From NCBI GenBank assembly GCA_012521675.1, contig JAAYLU010000010.1, positions 1 through 56,658 of the forward strand: a stretch of DNA of 56,658 bases, written 5' to 3'. The notes under the pieces were generated by a model that searched no databases, was not told the origin of the DNA, and saw nothing but the letters and a program-made list of their open reading frames with translations. A program made the position numbers and the translations under genes. The stretch comes from Synergistaceae bacterium (GTDB lineage Bacteria; Synergistota; Synergistia; Synergistales; Aminobacteriaceae). Positions 47,095 through 56,658 of the stretch are shown piece by piece; positions within the stretch are counted from its first letter, which is position 1, and every line of letters starts with the position of its first letter.

Positions 47095-48906
47095 TCAGTC
47101 CACGAGGTTCGATGCATCCTCCGCTTGTCCCTGCTCGTCTGGTTCGCCCGCCTCCAGCGGGAGCTCCGTAGCGGTTGTCTCCACCTCGTAGGCGAAGGTC
47201 CCAAGCAGCCTCCTCAGTTCGCCCGCAAGCATCGAGAGCTCGTCGGCGCCCCGAGCCACTTGCTCGGAGGAGTTTTCAACCTCCCCCATTTTCTCCTTCA
47301 CCATGTCCGAAGAGGCCGCGGCGTTGCTCACGCGGGAGGATATGCTCTGTATGGCGCTTGTTATCTCCTCGCCGGATGCGGCCTGTTGCTGCGACACGGC
47401 CGCCATGTCCTGGGTCGCGGATGCGATCCTGGACAGAGCCTCCATCATTCGGTCTATCATCTCGCGCGTCTCTCCCGCAAGCTTGCTGGACTCGTGAGAG
47501 TCCCTCGCGTTGCTCTCGGCGGACGACACGATCGTGTCCAGGTCCGTCGTTATGATGGATGCGAGTTCGGCGATCTTCTGCGCGGCCTCGTTGCTCTCCT
47601 CCGCAAGCTTGCGCACCTCGTCGGCCACCACCGCGAAACCCCTTCCGGCCTCGCCCGCACGTGCCGCCTCTATGGCCGCATTCAGTGCGAGCAAGTTCGT
47701 CTGGTCCGCGATGCCGCCTATCTGCGAGACGAAGCTCTGAATCTCTCGAGCCCTGTCCCCCAAGGTCCTTATCGCCTTCGCCGACTCCTCTACGTCCTCC
47801 GCGACCTTGCTGATGCTGCCGACCACCTTCTCCACGGCCCTGACGCCCTCTTCCCCGGAGAGTCTGGCCTGCTCGACCTCCTCGGCCATCTCCGTGCCCT
47901 TCTGCGCGGTCGCCTGGGTGCCGTGAGCCACCTCCTCGACTGATTCATTGATCTCGCGCGCCGCCTCGGCCAGGCTCTCCATCTGCGCGGAGACATCGTC
48001 GACGCCGGTGCGCGACTCCTCGATCCAGGCGTTGGATTCCTCGGCCAAGGAGGAGAATTCGCTCGCCGTGTCCCCCAGCCTGCCGGAGACATCGGCGATA
48101 CCGCTCACCGCGCCCCTCAGCTTTTCAGTCATGACCGAGAGGGCGTCCGCCACCTCGCCGAGCTCGTCGCCGGTATCGATGCCGAATTCCTCGCGGCTCA
48201 CGGTCAGATCTCCGTCACCCACGCGGTCCGCAAGGACGACCATGGTCCTCAGCGGGGAGGAGATGATCCTGGCTATCACGAATCCCAAGAAGAGCGCTAT
48301 CAGGGCCGAGGCCACGGAGATGCCGATGGTAACGTTGAGGGAGGCGTCGGAGTCCAGCTTGTTCCGCTCGTTGACCTCCTGCGCGGCCTTGTCGCTGTAG
48401 TCGCTGAGAAAGCGGATCTCGTCCTGGTATAACTCGAAGTACAATAGTCCCTCGTCCGCGAAAAACTCGTAGGCCTCCCGGTCCCTTCCCGCAAGGGCAA
48501 GCTCGATTGCCCTGTCCATAACCGGCGTGTACAGGCCGAACACCCTTTGCGCGTTGGCCAGGTGGTTGGCCTCCTCCTCGGAGAGCGACCCCTTTGAGAA
48601 GGCCTCGATGCACTCCTCGACTATCTTCGACCTCCGTTCGATGTCCTCGTGAAACTCCTGTTTTCGGAAGTCGTCGTCAGCCAGTATCATGGAGAATATG
48701 TCCGCTTGTATGGCCCTGCCGTGAACCAGAGCGTTGTAGATCAGCTGAGTCGGAAGAAGCCTGTCGGTGTACAGACTGTCCATATTCTCGACGGCCTTCC
48801 TGTTGCAGTTGTATCCGGCGTACCCCACCACCAGCAGCATAATCGTCATCACTGCGGCCAGGGTGAGAATCTTCCCCCTGATCCTCAGACTTTCGAGCCA
48901 TTCCAT
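47095..48906 (-). CDS. Methyl-accepting chemotaxis protein (603 aa)
   Basis: A transmembrane chemoreceptor. Membrane segment 1 covers residues 13-31, followed by an extracytoplasmic four-helix-bundle-like sensor (about 32-190), segment 2 (about 192-214), HAMP (215-270) and the cytoplasmic signalling hairpin. The hairpin tip reads [33 protein letters not shown]-type, split over [20 protein letters not shown]. No C-terminal CheR-docking pentapeptide is seen. ATG at 48906; AGGGAGTGAT precedes it. It follows the second receptor gene by 22 bases, so the two are cotranscribed. Confidence 0.92.
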
Positions 48907-48928
48907 GCAATCACTCCCTCAGTATCCG

Positions 48929-51082
48929 TCAATCCCTCCCGGGCGCAGGCAGGGCCTCGCGATGGTCCTGATGGTCCTCGTCGTCCCTGTCCACTACGAA
49001 CCTCTCCGTCATGTGCTTGAGCTCCTCGGACGTCTCGCTGACCTCCTGCGAGCCGGTCGCCACGTTCTCCATAGCCGCCGCCGTCTCCTCCATGGAGGCG
49101 GCCAGATTTTGAACGTGGTCGTCCGTGGTCTCCATCACGCTCGCGGTCAGGTCGATCAGCTCGATAACCCTCTCGGACTTCGCGACCTCCTCGTCCGTGG
49201 TGGTGATGATCCTGCGCACGTCATGGATGGAGCTGTCAACCGCCTTCTGGATGCGTTCCAGGGCCTGCCCCGCGACGTGGGCCACCGACACTCCGTCCTC
49301 CACTCCCTCGCGGCTCTTCTGCATCGACGAGACGGCCGAGCGAGTGCCCTCGAGTATCTTCTCCACAAGGTCGGCCACCTCGCGAGCGCCCTCCTGCGAC
49401 TGCTCTGCCAGCTTCCTGACCTCCTCGGCGACGACCGCAAATCCGCGTCCCGCCTCGCCCGCTCGTGCGGCCTCGATAGCCGCGTTCAACGCAAGCAGGT
49501 TCGTCTGGTCGGCAAGGCCGGTGATCGTGTCTCCCACCACTCCGATTCGCTGGGAGTAGGTGTCCAGCTGCCTGAGCTGCTCCTCCGTCTCGCGGACGGA
49601 GTCCTTGATGTTCTCCATGGTGTCGATGGTCTTCACGACCGTCTCGCTCCCCTCCGACGCCGCCTCCGCCATGTCGGTGGAGTTCTTGTCGGCGTTCGAA
49701 GCGAGGGTCTGGGCTATCTGTATAAGGCTGCTCATCTCGAGCATCACCTTGGAGGATTCGATAGCGTTCGCACGTCCTTCCCGGGTCTGCTCGGCCAGCT
49801 TCGCGTTGCTCTCTGCGACCTCGGCGGTCGTGCTGGTGACCTCCTCCGTCGACGCGGCCGTCTCCTCGGAGATCGCCGACAGGTGGACCGACTTGTCCTT
49901 TAGGTCGCGGATCATGTCTCGCTGAACGGAGATCATCTCGGCCAAAGCGTCCGCCATCAGCCCGAGTTCGTCGCGGTTGACTATCCGGAAGTCCTCGCGG
50001 TCGATGGTGAAGTCTCCGTCCCGCGCCCTCGCGGCCAGCTCCTGCACCCTGCGCAACGGCCCGGTGATGCTGCGCGTCATGATGAAGGCCACGGCGGCGC
50101 CCAGCACCACAGCTACGAGGACGGCCGCGACGATGAATCCGATCGTGGTCCCGAGGCTGCTCACCGTGTCGTTCGCTATCCTGACAGTGGCGTCGGTAGC
50201 TGTCTGCTGCAGATTGAGCGCAACTCCGGCGACGTTGATCCCGGCCTCGTCGCGCTTCTTGCCCAGTTCCTCAAGATCCCTCCAGGCGGCCAGCATTCTC
50301 TCCATGGTCGCCTGGTAGTCGTCCGCCGCCTTCTGGATGTTGTCGAGCTGGTCGAGGTTGACCTTCTGGACGGTGACCTTGCGGATCTCGGCGATATTGC
50401 CCCCTATCTCCTTGAAGCGCTCGATCCCTCTCTCGATCCGCGACGTGTCGCGCAGCGCCTGTCCCCTGAAGTTGTCCAGCCGGACGGCGGTGCCGCCCTC
50501 GGAGATCCCGTCTATCAGAACCAGCTTGTCCAGTCGCTCCGCTAGGGCCTCCTCCCCCAGATTAAGCCTTATCTCCTCGTGCATTGTCTTGAGCTGCGAC
50601 TCGAAGAAGGCCTCGGTGTTGTCGACGAATGCACGCGCCGCCACGTCCGCCGCCGCCCTGATCTCAAGGATATCCTTGACCGAATCCTCGGTGAGCTTCA
50701 TCATGTCGTCGTACTCGTTCAGGCTGGCCTCGACCTTCGGGAGATCCTCGCGCAGCCTGACGAGCCTCGGGGACTTGGCCGCGTGTTCCGTCGCCTCCCC
50801 GAGGTACTTCCTCGCGTTAGCGGCGTGCATGCGCCCGGCATCGTCGTACCTCTGCTCGTAGGTGTCCCCGAAGCTCCTCATCTCGTAGACCATGTCCTTG
50901 ATCGAGTCGAGTACGTCGCCCGCGATGTTGGACTCCGGTACGTACTGCTCGGCCAATGCATCAGCCTCGTTCCTTACCGAGTTCATGTTCACCCAGCTCA
51001 ACGCCCCCACTCCAGCGAAGATCAGCAGGAGCACCCCGAAAGACAGTGCAAGCTTCGCGCCTATCTTTATGTTCCTGAACAT
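48929..51082 (-). CDS. Methyl-accepting chemotaxis protein (717 aa)
   Basis: A larger chemoreceptor. Membrane segment 1 (about residues 9-30) is followed by a long helical sensor region of about 290 residues ([39 protein letters not shown]), consistent with a helical-bimodular sensor. Segment 2 is near 330-355, then HAMP and the signalling hairpin ([20 protein letters not shown]). The tail is acidic and His-rich ([17 protein letters not shown]), unusual for receptors. The ATG at 51082 is chosen because AAGGAGGG lies six bases upstream. A promoter lies some 260 bp upstream. Confidence 0.92.
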
Positions 51083-51406
51083 AAACATCCCTCCTTCAGA
51101 TGAGATTGACGAAAACACTCGTCTCTCCGTGCTTTGAGAGCCTCTTGGCTTGTGTCCTGCAACCCTTGAAACGACGACCGACGACGCGCTGTTTGATCTC
51201 GATGCTCCGCGCCACGGCCGGTGTGGCCCTCTTGCGACCTCAATGCGCGTTGATCCTGCTGGTTCTACAAAATTTGAATCATGGTGAAGCGGTGTGTGAT
51301 CGAGATGATTTTTACGGCAAATCTGGCGTTTAGCCTGACAAGATTATACCCAAAGGAAGCCGATTGGCAACAGGCAACCCGGCTCAACGCCCCTTCTCGG
51401 GATGAC
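51083..51406. other. Long leader before the chemoreceptor pair
   Basis: 324 bp without a gene. On the minus strand it holds the promoter at 51370-51343, then about 250 transcribed bases with several short hairpins (for example CCACACCGGCCGTGG) before the receptor start. I do not recognise a known riboswitch class in it; a GEMM c-di-GMP motif was looked for and not seen. A CGGGATGAC repeat copy lies at 51398-51406. Confidence 0.5.
51343..51370 (-). promoter_or_regulatory. Sigma70-type promoter for the chemoreceptor pair
   Basis: TTGCCA (51370-51365), 16-bp spacer, perfect TATAAT (51348-51343) on the minus strand. Confidence 0.65.
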
Positions 51407-52816
51407 CTAGGGTGGTGCCCCGTCCGCCTCGAGCGGCAGCAGGATCTCCAGCCTGCAGCCCTCTCCCGGACGGGATGCTATCGTCATCTCCGCGCGCAGC
51501 AGGCGCGAGCGCTCGAATATGTTGGAGAGTCCTCGCTTTCCAGCGGCCCGCAGCTCCTCGAAGCCGTCACCGGTCAAGCCCTCCGCGTCGAAGCCGCTTC
51601 CGTCGTCCTGGATGGAGAAGAGCAGCCGTCCGTCCCCTATGCGCAGTTCCACCTGTATGAATCGCGCCCCGCCGTGCCGGACGGAGTTGGAGGCCGCCTC
51701 GTGGAGTATGCGCGCAAGGGCCGTCACTTGCGCTTCGTCGAAGTCGGCCCTGGTTCGCAGCAGTTCCATGTCGGCGTCCACGTCTATTTCAAGCCCCTCG
51801 TATGCTCGTGCCAGCCGCGCCGCCGTCTCCTCCAGCGCGCCGGTCAGCCCGAGCCTGGCCCAGGAGGGGGAGAGAGCCTCGCAGTAGTCCCTTATCTCCG
51901 TTGCGGTCGCCTGGGCCGCCTCCTCGGCGGTATCCAGGTGTTCGAGGGCCGGGTCGTCCGCGGTCCTCCTCGCGAGCTGTATCCTCTTGATCGCGGCGAC
52001 CGCGGACTGCAGAGCGCCGTCGTGAAGCTCGCGCGCCAGCTGCCTCCTTGTGTTCTCCTGCGCCTCGACCAGGTCCGTCACGTACCGGGCCTTAAGCTCC
52101 TCCTTCTCGTATGACTCCGCCGCCAGCCTTCCTATCACCGCCGACAGGGCCGACAGCTCCGCCAGCGGGCCGTCGTAGAGGTTTACGTCCGGCTCCTTTC
52201 CCCATTTGATCAGGCCGAGGCGCTCGACGAAGCCCCGCAGGGGGAATGCAAGCAGGCGCCACAGCATGAAGACGCCGAGAAGCACCGCGGCGGAGGTCAG
52301 CATGGCAGACAGAACCCAGTTCCTCCACACCACGGCGAGCGGGGCCAGCAGATGGGTCCTAGAGACGGCGGCCATTATGAAGCTATCGCCCTCGAGGGAG
52401 CGAACCACCACGTAGAAGCTGTTTCCATCGGCGTCCTCGATCTTGAGGGGTTCTTCGTCGGCCTTCACCCCCTTCCAGAGGGGGAGCAGCCTCTCTGCGC
52501 CCGGTGTCGATGACAGCACCCTTCCTTCGCTGGAGATGAGCAGCATGCCGCCCGCCTCCGGGGTCTGCAGCGCCGGGTCCACCGACAGCATCCTGAAGCG
52601 CATTATCCGCGCCATCCTCGGCCTGTGCGGCCTGTCGGCGGAACCGGCCTCGGGCATGGTGCTGGAGAAGTTCTCGGCCAGGTCGAGCACATACGAGCGC
52701 ATCATCGAGTCCATGGCCGCCTCCTGCGCCCTCAGGGCGTGCAGCGAGACGAGGAAGTTGCCCGCGGTGAAAAGGGTCACCAGGGCCAGCAGAAGCTGAA
52801 GCAGGCGGCTTTTCAT
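51407..52816 (-). CDS. NarX/DegS-type sensor histidine kinase
   Basis: A 469-residue membrane kinase. Segment 1 (about 5-25) and segment 2 (about 165-190) enclose a periplasmic sensor of about 140 residues with a Pro/Arg-rich stretch (ADRPHRPRMARIMRFRML). A linker (200-250) leads to HisKA_3, with the phospho-His in QENTRRQLARELHDGALQS, and a C-terminal ATPase (HEAASNSVRHGGA; IQDDGSGF; GKRGLSNIFER). The signal is unknown. The ATG at 52816 overlaps the regulator stop as ATGA, so the two are coupled. Confidence 0.92.
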   Translation of the reverse strand: MKSRLLQLLLALVTLFTAGNFLVSLHALRAQEAAMDSMMRSYVLDLAENFSSTMPEAGSADRPHRPRMARIMRFRMLSVDPALQTPEAGGMLLISSEGRVLSSTPGAERLLPLWKGVKADEEPLKIEDADGNSFYVVVRSLEGDSFIMAAVSRTHLLAPLAVVWRNWVLSAMLTSAAVLLGVFMLWRLLAFPLRGFVERLGLIKWGKEPDVNLYDGPLAELSALSAVIGRLAAESYEKEELKARYVTDLVEAQENTRRQLARELHDGALQSAVAAIKRIQLARRTADDPALEHLDTAEEAAQATATEIRDYCEALSPSWARLGLTGALEETAARLARAYEGLEIDVDADMELLRTRADFDEAQVTALARILHEAASNSVRHGGARFIQVELRIGDGRLLFSIQDDGSGFDAEGLTGDGFEELRAAGKRGLSNIFERSRLLRAEMTIASRPGEGCRLEILLPLEADGAPP

Positions 52817-53448
52817 CTCTCGTCGCCGCCTATCTGGTCCAGCATTATGATGCCCTGTTTGAGAGCAGTCAGCACGGCCTCCGTCTTGTTCTTCACTCCC
52901 AGCTTGGAGTAAACGGAGGTCAGGTGAGCCGCGACGGTGCGCCTTGTTATCGACAGCAGCCGGGCGGTCTCGGACGAGGGGAGGCCGCGCGCGGTCAGGA
53001 GCAGGACCTCCAGCTCCCGCTCCGACAGTTCCGGCCCTTCATCGGGGGCGGAGAGAGACAGAGAGGGGTCGAGGAAGAAGATCCCTCCTGCTGTGTCCAG
53101 GATGGCACGCCTCAGCAGCTCGAAAGGGGCCGACTTCAGCACGAACCCCATGGCCCCGGCGCGTATCGCCGCCATGACGTACTGCTGCGCGCTGTAGGCC
53201 GTGAGCATCAGGACCCTGGTGTCGAGGTCGCTTTTCGCGATGCGCGACGCTATCTCCAGGCCGTCGCCGTTCGGCATCTCTATGTCGAGCATCGCGAGGT
53301 CGGGCTTCAGCTCAAGCGCGGCCCTCCAGGCCGATTCGCCGTCCTCCGCAAGGCCGACGAGCTTGAACTCATCCTCATCCTCGAGCCAGGTGGAGATGCC
53401 GGAGCGAGTGGAGGGGTGGTCGTCGGCAAGCAGAATTCTTATGGTCAC
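52813..53448 (-). CDS. NarL/FixJ-family response regulator
   Basis: A 211-residue DNA-binding regulator. The receiver (1-120) has ADDHPSTRSG, the phospho-Asp in LAMLDIEMPNGDG, MLTAYS and FVLKSAP. A LuxR-type helix-turn-helix (about 145-205) reads LSERELEVLLLTARGLPSSE and RRTVAAHLTSVYSKLGVKN. It forms a two-component system with the kinase that follows. Targets are unknown; the chemoreceptor pair downstream in the same direction is one possibility. Divergent from the CheY-like gene. Confidence 0.93.
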   Translation of the reverse strand: MTIRILLADDHPSTRSGISTWLEDEDEFKLVGLAEDGESAWRAALELKPDLAMLDIEMPNGDGLEIASRIAKSDLDTRVLMLTAYSAQQYVMAAIRAGAMGFVLKSAPFELLRRAILDTAGGIFFLDPSLSLSAPDEGPELSERELEVLLLTARGLPSSETARLLSITRRTVAAHLTSVYSKLGVKNKTEAVLTALKQGIIMLDQIGGDER

Positions 53449-53593
53449 GTCGGATTCCTCCCGTTTTGCCTCGTTTTCCGCGTGTTCGCGGTGCTATGTT
53501 ATTTTATCATCGACGGAGGTGATGCTTCTTGAGATCCCTCAGTCCGGATTATCACTGGTTCGAGGAAATCCTGGTCTCTCTCGTCGCGCTTCA

Positions 53594-53602
53594 TGTTATA
53601 AT
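53594..53602 (+). promoter_or_regulatory. Extended -10 promoter for the CheY/CheX pair
   Basis: TGTTATAAT (TG-n-TATAAT, 53594-53602) 52 bp before the GTG start. No good -35, which is usual for extended -10 promoters. Confidence 0.55.
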
Positions 53603-53654
53603 TCAGGAAACGGCATTTTGGGCGTAAAAAAACCTGTAAGGAGGGTTTTTCCCC

Positions 53655-54035
53655 GTGGAGAAAAAGTTCACCGCGCTTGTATGCGACGACTCGGCTGTGG
53701 TGCGAAAGATCATGAACAAGATCTTGAGCGAGGGGCCTTTCAAGGCCATTCACGAGGCCAACGACGGAGTTCAGGCGGTAGATATGTACCGCGAGCATCG
53801 TCCGGACATTGTCTTTCTTGACATAGTCATGCCGGGAAAGACCGGCATCCAGGCCCTGTCGGAGATCAGAGAGCTCGACCCGTCGGCCAGGGTGGTCATG
53901 GCGTCGTCCACCGGAACAACCAAGAATCTGAAGGCTGCGATCGATTTCGGAGCGGTCGACTTCATCCAGAAGCCCTTCGAGAAAGAGGCTGTACTGGCCC
54001 TCGCACGCCGGATTTTGGAAGGAGAGTGGGATTAG
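53655..54035 (+). CDS. CheY-like response regulator
   Basis: A 126-residue receiver-only protein. The acidic pair is in LVCDDSAVVRKI, the phospho-Asp in IVFLDIVMPGKTG, the switch Ser/Thr in VMASSTGTTKN, and the Lys in FIQKPFEKE. It matches CheY/CheB-receiver-like proteins. The start is GTG at 53655 with AAGGAGGG some 12 bases upstream. A 1-base stop/start overlap (TAGTG) links it to a CheX-type protein, the expected phosphatase for this regulator. Confidence 0.92.
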   Translation: MEKKFTALVCDDSAVVRKIMNKILSEGPFKAIHEANDGVQAVDMYREHRPDIVFLDIVMPGKTGIQALSEIRELDPSARVVMASSTGTTKNLKAAIDFGAVDFIQKPFEKEAVLALARRILEGEWD

Positions 54036-54928
54036 TGTTCTCTCGGCTTTTCGGACAGTTTCTTCTGCAGGAGGGGATCGTATCCTCGAGCTCCCTCTCC
54101 AACGCTCTGGGCCGGCTCGGTGAGGTCCGTCCGCTGATTGGAATGCTCGCCCTTGCGCAGGGTTTTATGACGCCCGACCAGGTACTTGAGGTCAACGAGG
54201 CCCAGAAGAAGGTAGACCGCCGCTTCGGAGAGCTGGCGATCGAGAAGGGCTACCTCACAGTGCAGCAGCTTGAGTCGATAATCTCTGCCCAGAAGAGCGA
54301 GCACGTACTGTTGGGGCAGATTCTTGTCCAGGACGGGTTCATGTCCCACGAGGGCTTCCTCAAGGCGCTGGAGCTGTATCGCACCAAGGCGGGGCTGACG
54401 GACGAGGGGTACGAGGCGGTCAAGGCCAACGACGTCGATGGGGTGATCTCCTCCGTGCTGGCAGGGCAGCCGGGGGCCAGGCGACCCCTCGTCGGAAAAT
54501 GGGGCTCGGTGTTCATGAAGAGCGTCATACGCTTCGTCGACCCGGGCACCGCTTTGGATCCCCTTGCGGAGGCGAGCTATTCGAACCTTCGCGGCTTCGT
54601 CCAGAGGATGAGCGGCGAGCAGAGGATCACCGTCTTCCTAGGGGCGCACGACGACGTCTACGTGGACCTGGCACGCCGATTCACGGACTTCGAGGACATC
54701 GTCTCGTACGACGAGATGGCCGAGGCCGGCGTCGGGGAGTTTCTGAATCTCGCCAACGGGCTGTTCACAGTGAACTGCTCCGACGAGGGCATAGAGCTGG
54801 ACATGCATCCCCAGGAGATGGTGGAGAGAGTCTCTTCGATCGACATGCCTCGTCCGGATGCGGTCTTCCCGTTCCTGCTTCCGAAGGGGCTCCTGTGGAC
54901 CGGCATACGGCTGGAACGCGCGTGGTGA
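54035..54928 (+). CDS. MshEN-like and CheX-domain fusion protein
   Basis: A 297-residue two-part protein. The N-terminal 115 residues hold repeats like the MshEN/GspE_N fold that binds cyclic di-GMP in other proteins: RRFGELAIEKGYLTVQQLES and LLGQILVQDGFMSHEGFLKA, plus a weaker first pair (FGQFLLQEGIVSSSSL). The C-terminal 150 residues look like CheX, a CheY-P phosphatase; the helix GEFLNLANGLF carries the Glu-x-x-Asn pattern of the CheX active site. The GTG at 54035 is chosen for AAGGAG upstream; GTG 54026 is possible. The pairing with CheY suggests a direct second-messenger input to response-regulator dephosphorylation; this is inference. Confidence 0.75.
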   Translation: MFSRLFGQFLLQEGIVSSSSLSNALGRLGEVRPLIGMLALAQGFMTPDQVLEVNEAQKKVDRRFGELAIEKGYLTVQQLESIISAQKSEHVLLGQILVQDGFMSHEGFLKALELYRTKAGLTDEGYEAVKANDVDGVISSVLAGQPGARRPLVGKWGSVFMKSVIRFVDPGTALDPLAEASYSNLRGFVQRMSGEQRITVFLGAHDDVYVDLARRFTDFEDIVSYDEMAEAGVGEFLNLANGLFTVNCSDEGIELDMHPQEMVERVSSIDMPRPDAVFPFLLPKGLLWTGIRLERAW

Positions 54929-54948
54929 CGGGCTGAGGAGGCCGCGGC

Positions 54949-55446
54949 ATGGAGTCATGGGAGGGTTGCGCCTACACTGCCCTGATAGTGTTCGGCTTCT
55001 TGATCAGGGACGGCAAGGTGCTGATCGTCCGACGGGCGAACGACCCGTACAGGGGGGAACGCACCGTGCCCGGAGGGCGGAAGCAGCGAGGCGAGTCACT
55101 TCGCCAGGCCTTGGCGCGCGAGATAAAAGAGGAGACAGGCTGTGTCGTGAAAGGCGCGGAGTACGCAGGGACGCTGCACGCCGTCGTGGAGGGCGATGAG
55201 ATGGAGTACCTTTCCGTCTACTTCGTCTGCAGGAATTTCAACGGCGAGCCGCACGGCAGCGACGAGGGGGAGGTCGAGTGGATGGATGTCGACGAGAGCC
55301 TTACCGCGCCGGATATGCACCCGATCTATCGCCTCCTGATGCCGCGCATAATCGGGGGGGACTATCCGTTCGACGGCACGATGCTCGTCGAGAAGGGGGC
55401 GCCTCCCGTGTACGACATCGCCGGTCCGGTACCGAGAGCCCTGTGA
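54949..55446 (+). CDS. NUDIX hydrolase
   Basis: A 165-residue NUDIX protein. The complete Nudix box is present: GGRKQRGESLRQALAREIKE followed by ETG (G-x5-E-x7-REIKEETG), which binds the metal and cleaves a nucleoside diphosphate-linked substrate. VFGFLIRDGKVLIVRRANDP opens the fold. The substrate is unknown. Start ATG with GAGGAGG upstream-type site (CTGAGGAGGCCGCGGC). It starts 20 bases after the MshEN-CheX stop and may belong to that transcript; its stop lies four bases from the convergent DHH gene. Confidence 0.9.
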   Translation: MESWEGCAYTALIVFGFLIRDGKVLIVRRANDPYRGERTVPGGRKQRGESLRQALAREIKEETGCVVKGAEYAGTLHAVVEGDEMEYLSVYFVCRNFNGEPHGSDEGEVEWMDVDESLTAPDMHPIYRLLMPRIIGGDYPFDGTMLVEKGAPPVYDIAGPVPRAL

Positions 55447-55450
55447 CCTG

Positions 55451-56359
55451 CTAGCCCTTCAGTTCCGATATTATATCCTTGATCAAGAGGTCGGCGGCCG
55501 AGTAGGACACTTGGCAGGTGCCGACCCTTTTGTGTCCGCCCCCTCCGTGCTTCAGCATCAGGGCTCCTATGTCGGTCTTGCACGTCCTGTTGAGGATGCT
55601 GTGCCCGCACGCGATGGCCACGTTCTGCATCTGCTTGCCGTCGACTATCCAAACGGAGGCGTTCTGCTCGGGGTAGAGGCTGTATATCAGGAACCTGTTA
55701 CCTGTGTAGATGGGGGATACGCCGCGCAGGTCCGTGATTATCACGTTTCCGTTTATCCTGGTGTGAGAGTGGATCATCTCCGTGAACAGCGCCGTCTGCT
55801 CGTAGTACATCGCGACTCGCTCCTTCACGTCCGGGTGCTCCAGTATCTCGCCTATGGTCATGTTTCTGCAGTGGTTGATCAGGTTCTCCATCAGCTGGTA
55901 GTTGCTTATGCGAAACTCCCTGAACCTGCCCAGCCCGGTCCGGGGGTCGCAGAGAAAGCCCAGAAGGATCCAGCCCTCGGGGTTGAGGATCTCCTCCGCG
56001 GTCAAATTGCCCGAGTCTACTTTGTCGACTCCTTCGATCATATCATCATAACCGGGGAAGCGCTCCGCTCCGCCGTAATACTCGTAGATTATCCTGGCGG
56101 CGGACGGCGCGAGGCGGCTCTCTCCCTTGGCGTCCTGCGTCCATCCGACCCGCTCCTCCTCGGACGAGTGGTGATCGAACCACATGCCGCAGCCTGGAAC
56201 GTAGGGCACGTTCGCCAGCACGTCGTTCTCGGTGGGCTGGAAGAGCCCGTCCTGGAGGTCCTTCGGGTGCACGAACTTCCAGGAATTGATGACCCCCGCC
56301 TCCTTCAGCAGTATTCCGCAGATCAGGCCGTCGAAATCAGAGCGTGTGATAAGGCGCAT
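55451..56359 (-). CDS. DHH-family phosphoesterase (exopolyphosphatase-like)
   Basis: A 302-residue DHH/DHHA1 protein. The N-terminal metal motifs are ITRSDFDGLICG (residue 4 on) and WFDHHSSEE; a further Asp is in GVDKVDSGN. The DHHA1 end shows ACGHSILNRT and the GGGGHKRVGTCQV substrate loop. Relatives cleave oligoribonucleotides, cyclic dinucleotides or polyphosphate. The last gene partner is unclear. The ATG at 56359 is favoured because GGGGAG lies upstream at about ten bases; ATG at 56380 is an alternative. A TATAAT lies at 56400-56395. Confidence 0.88.
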   Translation of the reverse strand: MRLITRSDFDGLICGILLKEAGVINSWKFVHPKDLQDGLFQPTENDVLANVPYVPGCGMWFDHHSSEEERVGWTQDAKGESRLAPSAARIIYEYYGGAERFPGYDDMIEGVDKVDSGNLTAEEILNPEGWILLGFLCDPRTGLGRFREFRISNYQLMENLINHCRNMTIGEILEHPDVKERVAMYYEQTALFTEMIHSHTRINGNVIITDLRGVSPIYTGNRFLIYSLYPEQNASVWIVDGKQMQNVAIACGHSILNRTCKTDIGALMLKHGGGGHKRVGTCQVSYSAADLLIKDIISELKG

Positions 56360-56394
56360 GTGCGACCAACTCCCCATCATATTCTACTGAACCC

Positions 56395-56400
56395 ATTATA
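56395..56400 (-). promoter_or_regulatory. Possible -10 box for the DHH gene
   Basis: Perfect TATAAT on the minus strand, about 36 bp before the chosen ATG; no convincing -35. Confidence 0.4.
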
Positions 56401-56491
56401 CATTTACGGGAGGGTCCGCGCGACATCGCAAAGTCCCGACCGGTTGCCTTAATGATGGTATCATTTATCGAGCATGAGAGGAGCGAAAGCC

Positions 56492-56658
56492 ATGCAAGAG
56501 CATCGGTTCACTACGACCGCCTGCCCGTACGACTGTCCGGACGCCTGCGCCATGAGGGGGCGCTTCGACGGGGGGAGGACGATCCTGGCGCCCAACCCGG
56601 ACCTGCCGTACAGCGCCTTTCTGTGCGCCAAGGGATTGAGATGGGCGGAGAGGGCGAC
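56492..56658 (+). CDS. Molybdopterin oxidoreductase, N-terminal fragment (cut by window end)
   Basis: Only the first 55 codons are in the window. The N-terminal iron-sulfur motif of the DMSO-reductase superfamily is visible: CPYDCPDACAMR then FLCAKGLRWAER (Cys-x3-Cys-x3-Cys with a fourth Cys about 27 residues later). Such enzymes use a bis-molybdopterin-guanine-dinucleotide metal cofactor in anaerobic electron transfer. No Tat signal precedes the Cys motif, so it is probably cytoplasmic. ATG at 56492 with AGAGGAG eight bases upstream; an in-frame ATG at 56474 is less well placed. Confidence 0.85.
   Translation, partial: MQEHRFTTTACPYDCPDACAMRGRFDGGRTILAPNPDLPYSAFLCAKGLRWAERA

Follow-up and report, generated by a model that had tools for sequence, protein, structure and literature searches.

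Does a pair of overlapping genes in a Synergistaceae bacterium place the lifetime of CheY-P under the control of cyclic di-GMP (c-di-GMP)? The question is raised by the composition of the two encoded proteins, a CheY and a fusion of MshEN-type repeats with a CheX-like domain, in which the original prediction had seen a potential link between motility and sessility. Here, we have investigated the pair in the window, which is the whole stretch of 56,658 nucleotides that was analysed, and in homologous loci of other genomes. We give an even chance to the explanation that it constitutes a signalling module with a predicted c-di-GMP-gated CheY-P phosphatase.

The overlapping gene pair

The first gene, cheY (53655–54035, forward strand), follows a Shine-Dalgarno-like AAGGAGGG that was read in the sequence (53638–53645, forward strand) and encodes a single-domain response regulator of 126 residues. 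The protein consists of one REC domain (Pfam Response_reg, E=8.7e-28), in which the acidic pair D11 and D12, the phospho-Asp D56, S84 and K106 are all present, each of them conserved in at least 97% of 66 non-redundant paired CheYs. A cheY gene overlapping a downstream gene, as it had been proposed, is thus confirmed. The downstream gene encodes the MshEN-CheX protein of 297 residues (54035–54928, forward strand). The ORF caller had placed it at 54026–54928, but a start at the GTG of position 54026, located 1 base past AGGAG, was rejected based on the starts of orthologs and the ribosome-binding-site spacing. Within the 3' end of cheY, we read a Shine-Dalgarno-like GGAAGGAG (54017–54024, forward strand) 10 bases 5' of a second GTG at 54035. 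This codon, found 10 bases past AAGGAG, corresponds to the ATG start of orthologs and it is where the conserved protein begins upon their comparison. From these features we consider GTG 54035 as probably the true start, and for this reason the overlap with cheY, whose existence had been correctly recognized, would extend over 1 base rather than 10. The stop and start codons overlap as TAGTG in the window and as TGATG or TAATG in orthologs.

An AlphaFold2 model of the full MshEN-CheX protein was obtained with a pLDDT of 93.9 and a pTM of 0.81. Our assessment of its CheX active site and its ligand pocket draws only on Foldseek scores, the sequence and the secondary structure. The two parts of the protein are connected by a variable helical linker (residues 120–150; 54392–54484, forward strand), which shows the lowest mean pairwise identity among its segments (22%).

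MshEN-type repeats and the predicted c-di-GMP site

The MshEN-like repeats assigned to the N-terminal part of the protein are borne out by its match to the NCBIfam family NF053729 ('c-di-GMP_motif'), which scores 66.2 bits in two stretches at a cut-off of 38 and extends to 65 of 65 aligned relatives. Four 24-residue motifs of this type, all encoded on the forward strand, begin at residues 5, 34, 63 and 92 in an exact 29-residue register with five-residue spacers, and when the protein was shuffled 20,000 times, at least four matches to the pattern arose once. In the outer motifs, position 1 is lost in the comparison of 91 homologs: M1 (residues 5–28; 54047–54118) is degenerate at this position (L5) and at position 24 (L28), and M4 (residues 92–115; 54308–54379) carries L92 instead of a basic residue and, in 87 homologs, a tyrosine (Y115) in place of the Gln. 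Both central motifs, M2 (residues 34–57; 54134–54205) and M3 (residues 63–86; 54221–54292), follow the consensus with Arg, Lys or Leu at position 1, Gly at position 3 and Gln at position 24 (PMC11731258), and they would form the first and second half of a c-di-GMP site. G36 and Q57 of M2 are found in all 91 homologs and residue 34 is Lys in 51, Arg in 23 and Leu in 15 of them (89 together). In M3, R63 is retained in 90 of 91 homologs and F64, G65, G72 and Q86 in each of them. The same two motifs are the best-conserved segments of the protein (mean pairwise identities of 62% for M3 and 56% for M2), and the alignment of MshE with the family profile covers positions 30–88 and thereby M2 and M3 (E=1e-7). 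The presence of L34 in the window is admitted by the extended position-1 consensus (R/K/L)LG, and the change K167L in PilF resulted in tighter binding at 2 nM (PMC11731258).

A model of the M2+M3 fragment is within 0.7–0.8 Å of c-di-GMP-bound MshE and PilF GSPII-B (0.8 Å over 54 columns to 5htl_B and 0.7 Å to 8pdk_A), compared to 1.5 Å for apo PilF and 1.7 Å for the non-binding GSPII-A, a likeness to the bound forms that is suggestive only, since MshE and PilF may have been among the structures known to AlphaFold. In the AlphaFold model, helix 1 of M2 and of M3 begins right after position 1, as in PilF with its ligand bound, a state that requires the unfolding of the first turn of this helix (PMC11731258), whereas the corresponding helices of M1 and M4 begin three residues ahead of position 1.

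One deviation concerns the residues that stack against the guanines. The cluster next to GMP2 (I35/L79/I83) remains hydrophobic. In contrast, every homolog deviates in the one next to GMP1 (V50, H/N54, F64), which is formed by V50, N54 and F64 in the protein of the window. Residue 54 (54194–54196) is Asn here; across the homologs, 78 of 91 carry His or Asn at this position, and residue 64 (54224–54226) is Phe in all 91, compared to Leu at either position in MshE. In MshE, altering any one stacking residue reduced the affinity more than tenfold (PMC5013675). The changes at N54 and F64 could thus weaken binding by affecting the hydrophobic cluster of one guanine, and the asymmetry of the half-sites could shift the affinity or the ligand preference. 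With respect to a lack of binding residues, which the original prediction had named as grounds for its rejection, we find most of the ligand residues in place (L34/R63, G36/G65 and Q57/Q86), whereas N54 and F64 replace the stacking Leu. In light of these properties, we regard M2+M3 as the predicted site and binding of c-di-GMP as likely.

Single-sequence matches to NF053729 and PilF had instead suggested M3+M4 as the site. M4 lacks the Gln (Y115) and is variable at position 1, and we have rejected it as the primary assignment because M2+M3 are near-invariant and the family profile places MshE there; the M3 half-site would be common to either choice. The repeats also show matches to Pfam FumaraseC_C and DUF4388, which are below threshold in the protein of the window and which we read as shared similarity of short helical hairpins; fumarases are weak Foldseek matches too.

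Taken together, the N-terminal region shares with the MshEN domain of Vibrio cholerae MshE and with GSPII-B of Thermus PilF the 24-residue motifs with five-residue spacers, their (R/K/L)-h-G start and closing Gln and, in the model, the four-helix bundle at the mentioned deviation of 0.7–0.8 Å. It differs from both in its four tandem motifs with the predicted site at the central pair, in the V50/N54/F64 composition of one stacking cluster and in its attachment to CheX rather than to an ATPase, and no MshEN_C subdomain was recognized in the protein.

The CheX-fold domain

The C-terminal part of the protein was assigned to a CheX-fold domain (residues 151–290; 54485–54904, forward strand). The top Foldseek matches of the whole model are CheX structures, including 6vpw (TMt 0.74–0.76), 3hzh_B, the CheX chain in the Borrelia complex CheX-CheY-BeF3 (TMt 0.74, E=9e-7), 3iic and 1squ, with 6vpw, 3iic and 3hzh_B at E-values below 1e-6. 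Since a sequence profile aligns these chains to positions ~154–289, the match must fall into the C-terminal half. The Pfam family PF13690 (CheX) scores 20.2 bits in the protein of the window (E=6e-4), below its cut-off of 27 bits, and the placement therefore rests on fold and motif. Of the two HMM searches that had been proposed, the one for the repeats is thus above and the one for CheX below the respective cut-off. Among the relatives, 56 of 65 match CheX at E<0.01 and 28 match the NCBIfam family CheX_Thtogales; the Pfam score of the relative L114 is 27.0.

The predicted Glu-x-x-Asn pattern of the CheX phosphatases is retained as E235-F-L-N238 (54737–54748, forward strand), with N238 conserved in 91 of 91 and E235 in 84 of 91 homologs, so that the original assignment of a CheX-like domain stands in both fold and motif. 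The seven homologs with Asp in place of E235 are all from Lachnospiraceae (loci L103, L105, L106, L107, L108, L113 and L115) and contain D-F-L-N or D-F-M-N. FliY and FliM are found among the weaker Foldseek matches; both belong to the same fold superfamily as CheX and bind CheY-P.

The fold, the helix carrying E-x-x-N and the CheY partner are shared with CheX of Thermotoga maritima, Borrelia burgdorferi and Vibrio vulnificus, at an identity to the CheX fold matches of about 10–16%. Unlike MshEN-CheX, those of them with a solved structure are stand-alone domains of ~150 residues without a second-messenger receptor.

Conservation of the pair, its hosts and competing explanations

A survey of other genomes, as it had been recommended, underlines the coupling to CheY, which holds in two phyla. 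A full-length homolog is found in 17 of 188 Synergistota genomes, with CheY adjoining or fused in all 17, and among 84,980 species genomes that were scanned, at least 80 loci were identified, most of them in Bacillota. Among the matches listed, CheY adjoins or is fused in 78 of 80 cases, and in 77 of 80 the end of the CheY gene falls within a range from 15 bases upstream to 8 bases downstream of the start of its partner; in L114 the REC domain is fused at the C-terminus, L112 is interrupted by a contig end, and L062 (Caldalkalibacillus mannanilyticus) is the sole uncut locus in this set where CheY neither adjoins nor is fused. MshEN-CheX-REC fusions with the REC domain at the C-terminus were found in three genomes (L014 and L131 from Synergistota and L114 from a Lachnospiraceae MAG), and they are Rosetta-stone evidence for a joint function of CheY and MshEN-CheX. 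The distance matrices of both proteins correlate with r=0.87 (0 of 2,000 permutations), as would be expected of a co-inherited unit. The pair is thus conserved in at least two bacterial phyla.

The genome of the window (2.2 Mb) contains CheA, FliM, PilT and 18 GGDEF matches. GGDEF proteins are encoded by all hosts tested, with 4–43 in 41 of 41 Bacillota hosts, and in Synergistota their median is 17 in hosts vs 5 in non-hosts, a difference with p=7e-4 in a genus-level comparison (6 vs 28 genera), where relatedness is only partly corrected. Adjacency, co-inheritance and GGDEF counts describe association, not allostery. CheA is present in 48 of 50 Bacillota and 12 of 13 Synergistota hosts tested. 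FliM was detected in 35 of the 50 Bacillota hosts, and the 15 hosts lacking it (L065, L067, L069, L071–L075, L080, L086, L093, L095, L098, L100 and L109), mainly Ruminococcus and relatives, encode PilT in all and CheA in 13 cases. With respect to the proposed link between motility and sessility, flagella alone can thus not be the output. PilT is found in 48 of the 50 Bacillota hosts, with no match in G195 and G200, nor in G034 and G050 from Synergistota. Its presence in 11 of 11 Planococcaceae hosts is uninformative, since it is common in this family anyway (211 of 261 genomes), and with this high background in the control we have dismissed PilT as a specific partner; it is a candidate partner, not a proven one.

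In the explanation to which we have assigned an even chance, CheY would be phosphorylated at D56, presumably by the CheA of the host, and the CheX-type phosphatase would strip this phosphate using E235 and N238. Binding of c-di-GMP to the central pair M2+M3 (residues 34–86) of the N-terminal MshEN_N tandem would raise or lower the phosphatase activity or change the oligomeric state or the location of the protein, so that the level of the messenger would set the lifetime of CheY-P, which in turn would act on the motility device present. In hosts that possess a flagellar switch, this would be the target, and those without flagella would use a different one, with type IV pili as the most likely candidate. 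Whereas the gene pair, the domain folds, the conserved residues and the co-occurrence with CheA and GGDEF proteins were computed, we infer binding, catalysis, allosteric coupling and output.

The same observations may be read differently. MshEN-CheX could be a constitutive CheY-P phosphatase, whose repeats do not bind a nucleotide under physiological conditions and instead serve in dimerization or in docking, with type IV pilus and chemosensory proteins among the conceivable partners. The altered GMP1 stacking cluster of every homolog, the degenerate M1 and M4 and the precedent of a non-binding relative in PilF GSPII-A (PMC11731258) would be in line with such a role. However, a mere scaffold need not preserve the Gly, Gln and R/K/L positions of M2+M3 as near-invariant features in the best-conserved part of the protein, and together with the GGDEF proteins encoded by all hosts tested, this makes us regard a constitutive enzyme as unlikely. 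We consider it improbable that the main role of the CheX domain is other than that of a phosphatase and that the protein acts as c-di-GMP-responsive partner or effector of CheY-P, either as a sink or as an adaptor passing the signal to a target. The REC domain fused in cis in three genomes, the Asp at position 235 of seven homologs and the CheY-P binders FliY and FliM among the weaker fold matches would be compatible with an adaptor, but E-x-x-N is kept in 84 and N238 in all of 91 homologs, and the nearest folds are CheX proteins, one of which was solved with CheY.

A further alternative concerns the output and is compatible with a c-di-GMP-gated phosphatase: the same module might not control swimming chemotaxis but type IV pili or matrix, and this would include the host of the window. 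It finds support in the Bacillota hosts without FliM, all with PilT and most with CheA, in the prevalence of PilT in Bacillota hosts in general and in Ruminococcus albus, which adheres to cellulose via type IV pili (review PMC13234629). Conversely, PilT is widespread irrespective of the pair and without a match in the four hosts mentioned above, the genome of the window contains FliM and CheA besides PilT, and in the 14 loci that were read, no pilus gene adjoining the pair was recognized by eye. We view this reading as somewhat unlikely.

Known c-di-GMP inputs to motility comprise YcgR-type PilZ brakes, MapZ-CheR1 and the CheY-like Cle proteins. Their points of action are the motor, receptor methylation or a CheY-like protein that binds the messenger, and to our knowledge none of them is a CheY-P phosphatase. 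The cross-talk between c-di-GMP and chemosensory signalling is an active question, and a phosphatase that contains its own c-di-GMP receptor would allow a direct resetting of CheY by the messenger. If true, the c-di-GMP-gated phosphatase would represent an undescribed route by which c-di-GMP enters chemosensory signalling, namely via dephosphorylation, and the module may directly couple motility control to the decision whether to settle. In its broadest form, as a widespread two-gene module where a CheX phosphatase gated by c-di-GMP puts the lifetime of CheY-P under direct control of the messenger, and which serves varied motility devices including those of flagella-less hosts, we propose this tentatively, at slightly less than an even chance. 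The original statement that no described system with this exact pair was known requires qualification as to the fusion itself, since Wang et al. 2016 list CheX in one clause among the partner domains of MshEN (PMC5013675). These fusions combine the same two domain types and probably include the present family, although the main text of that study does not contain the CheY pairing, the motif phase, the REC fusions or the host distribution. The open-access literature searched yielded no description of MshEN-CheX paired with CheY, of the conservation of this pair or of the function of the protein. The pair is small and looks amenable to in vitro work, and the module is testable, since its hosts include cultured Bacillaceae, Lysinibacillus, Ureibacillus and Ruminococcus albus, with hosts lacking FliM raising the question of the CheY-P target there.

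The neighbours of the pair vary between lineages in the 14 loci that were read, which argues against a larger conserved operon. A search for an upstream c-di-GMP riboswitch gave no Rfam match in the region 48000–56658, and a scan for promoters and terminators gave no signal clearly over chance. In the window, a NUDIX hydrolase gene is located directly 3' of MshEN-CheX (54949–55446, forward strand), where the other lineages read have different neighbours. Two methyl-accepting chemotaxis proteins are encoded side by side 2.5 kb upstream of the pair (47095–51118, reverse strand). Divergent from cheY, the overlapping genes of a HisKA_3 histidine kinase and a LuxR-type response regulator (51407–53448, reverse strand) form a second pair, which likewise adjoins cheY and MshEN-CheX in a locus of the same genus (L005).
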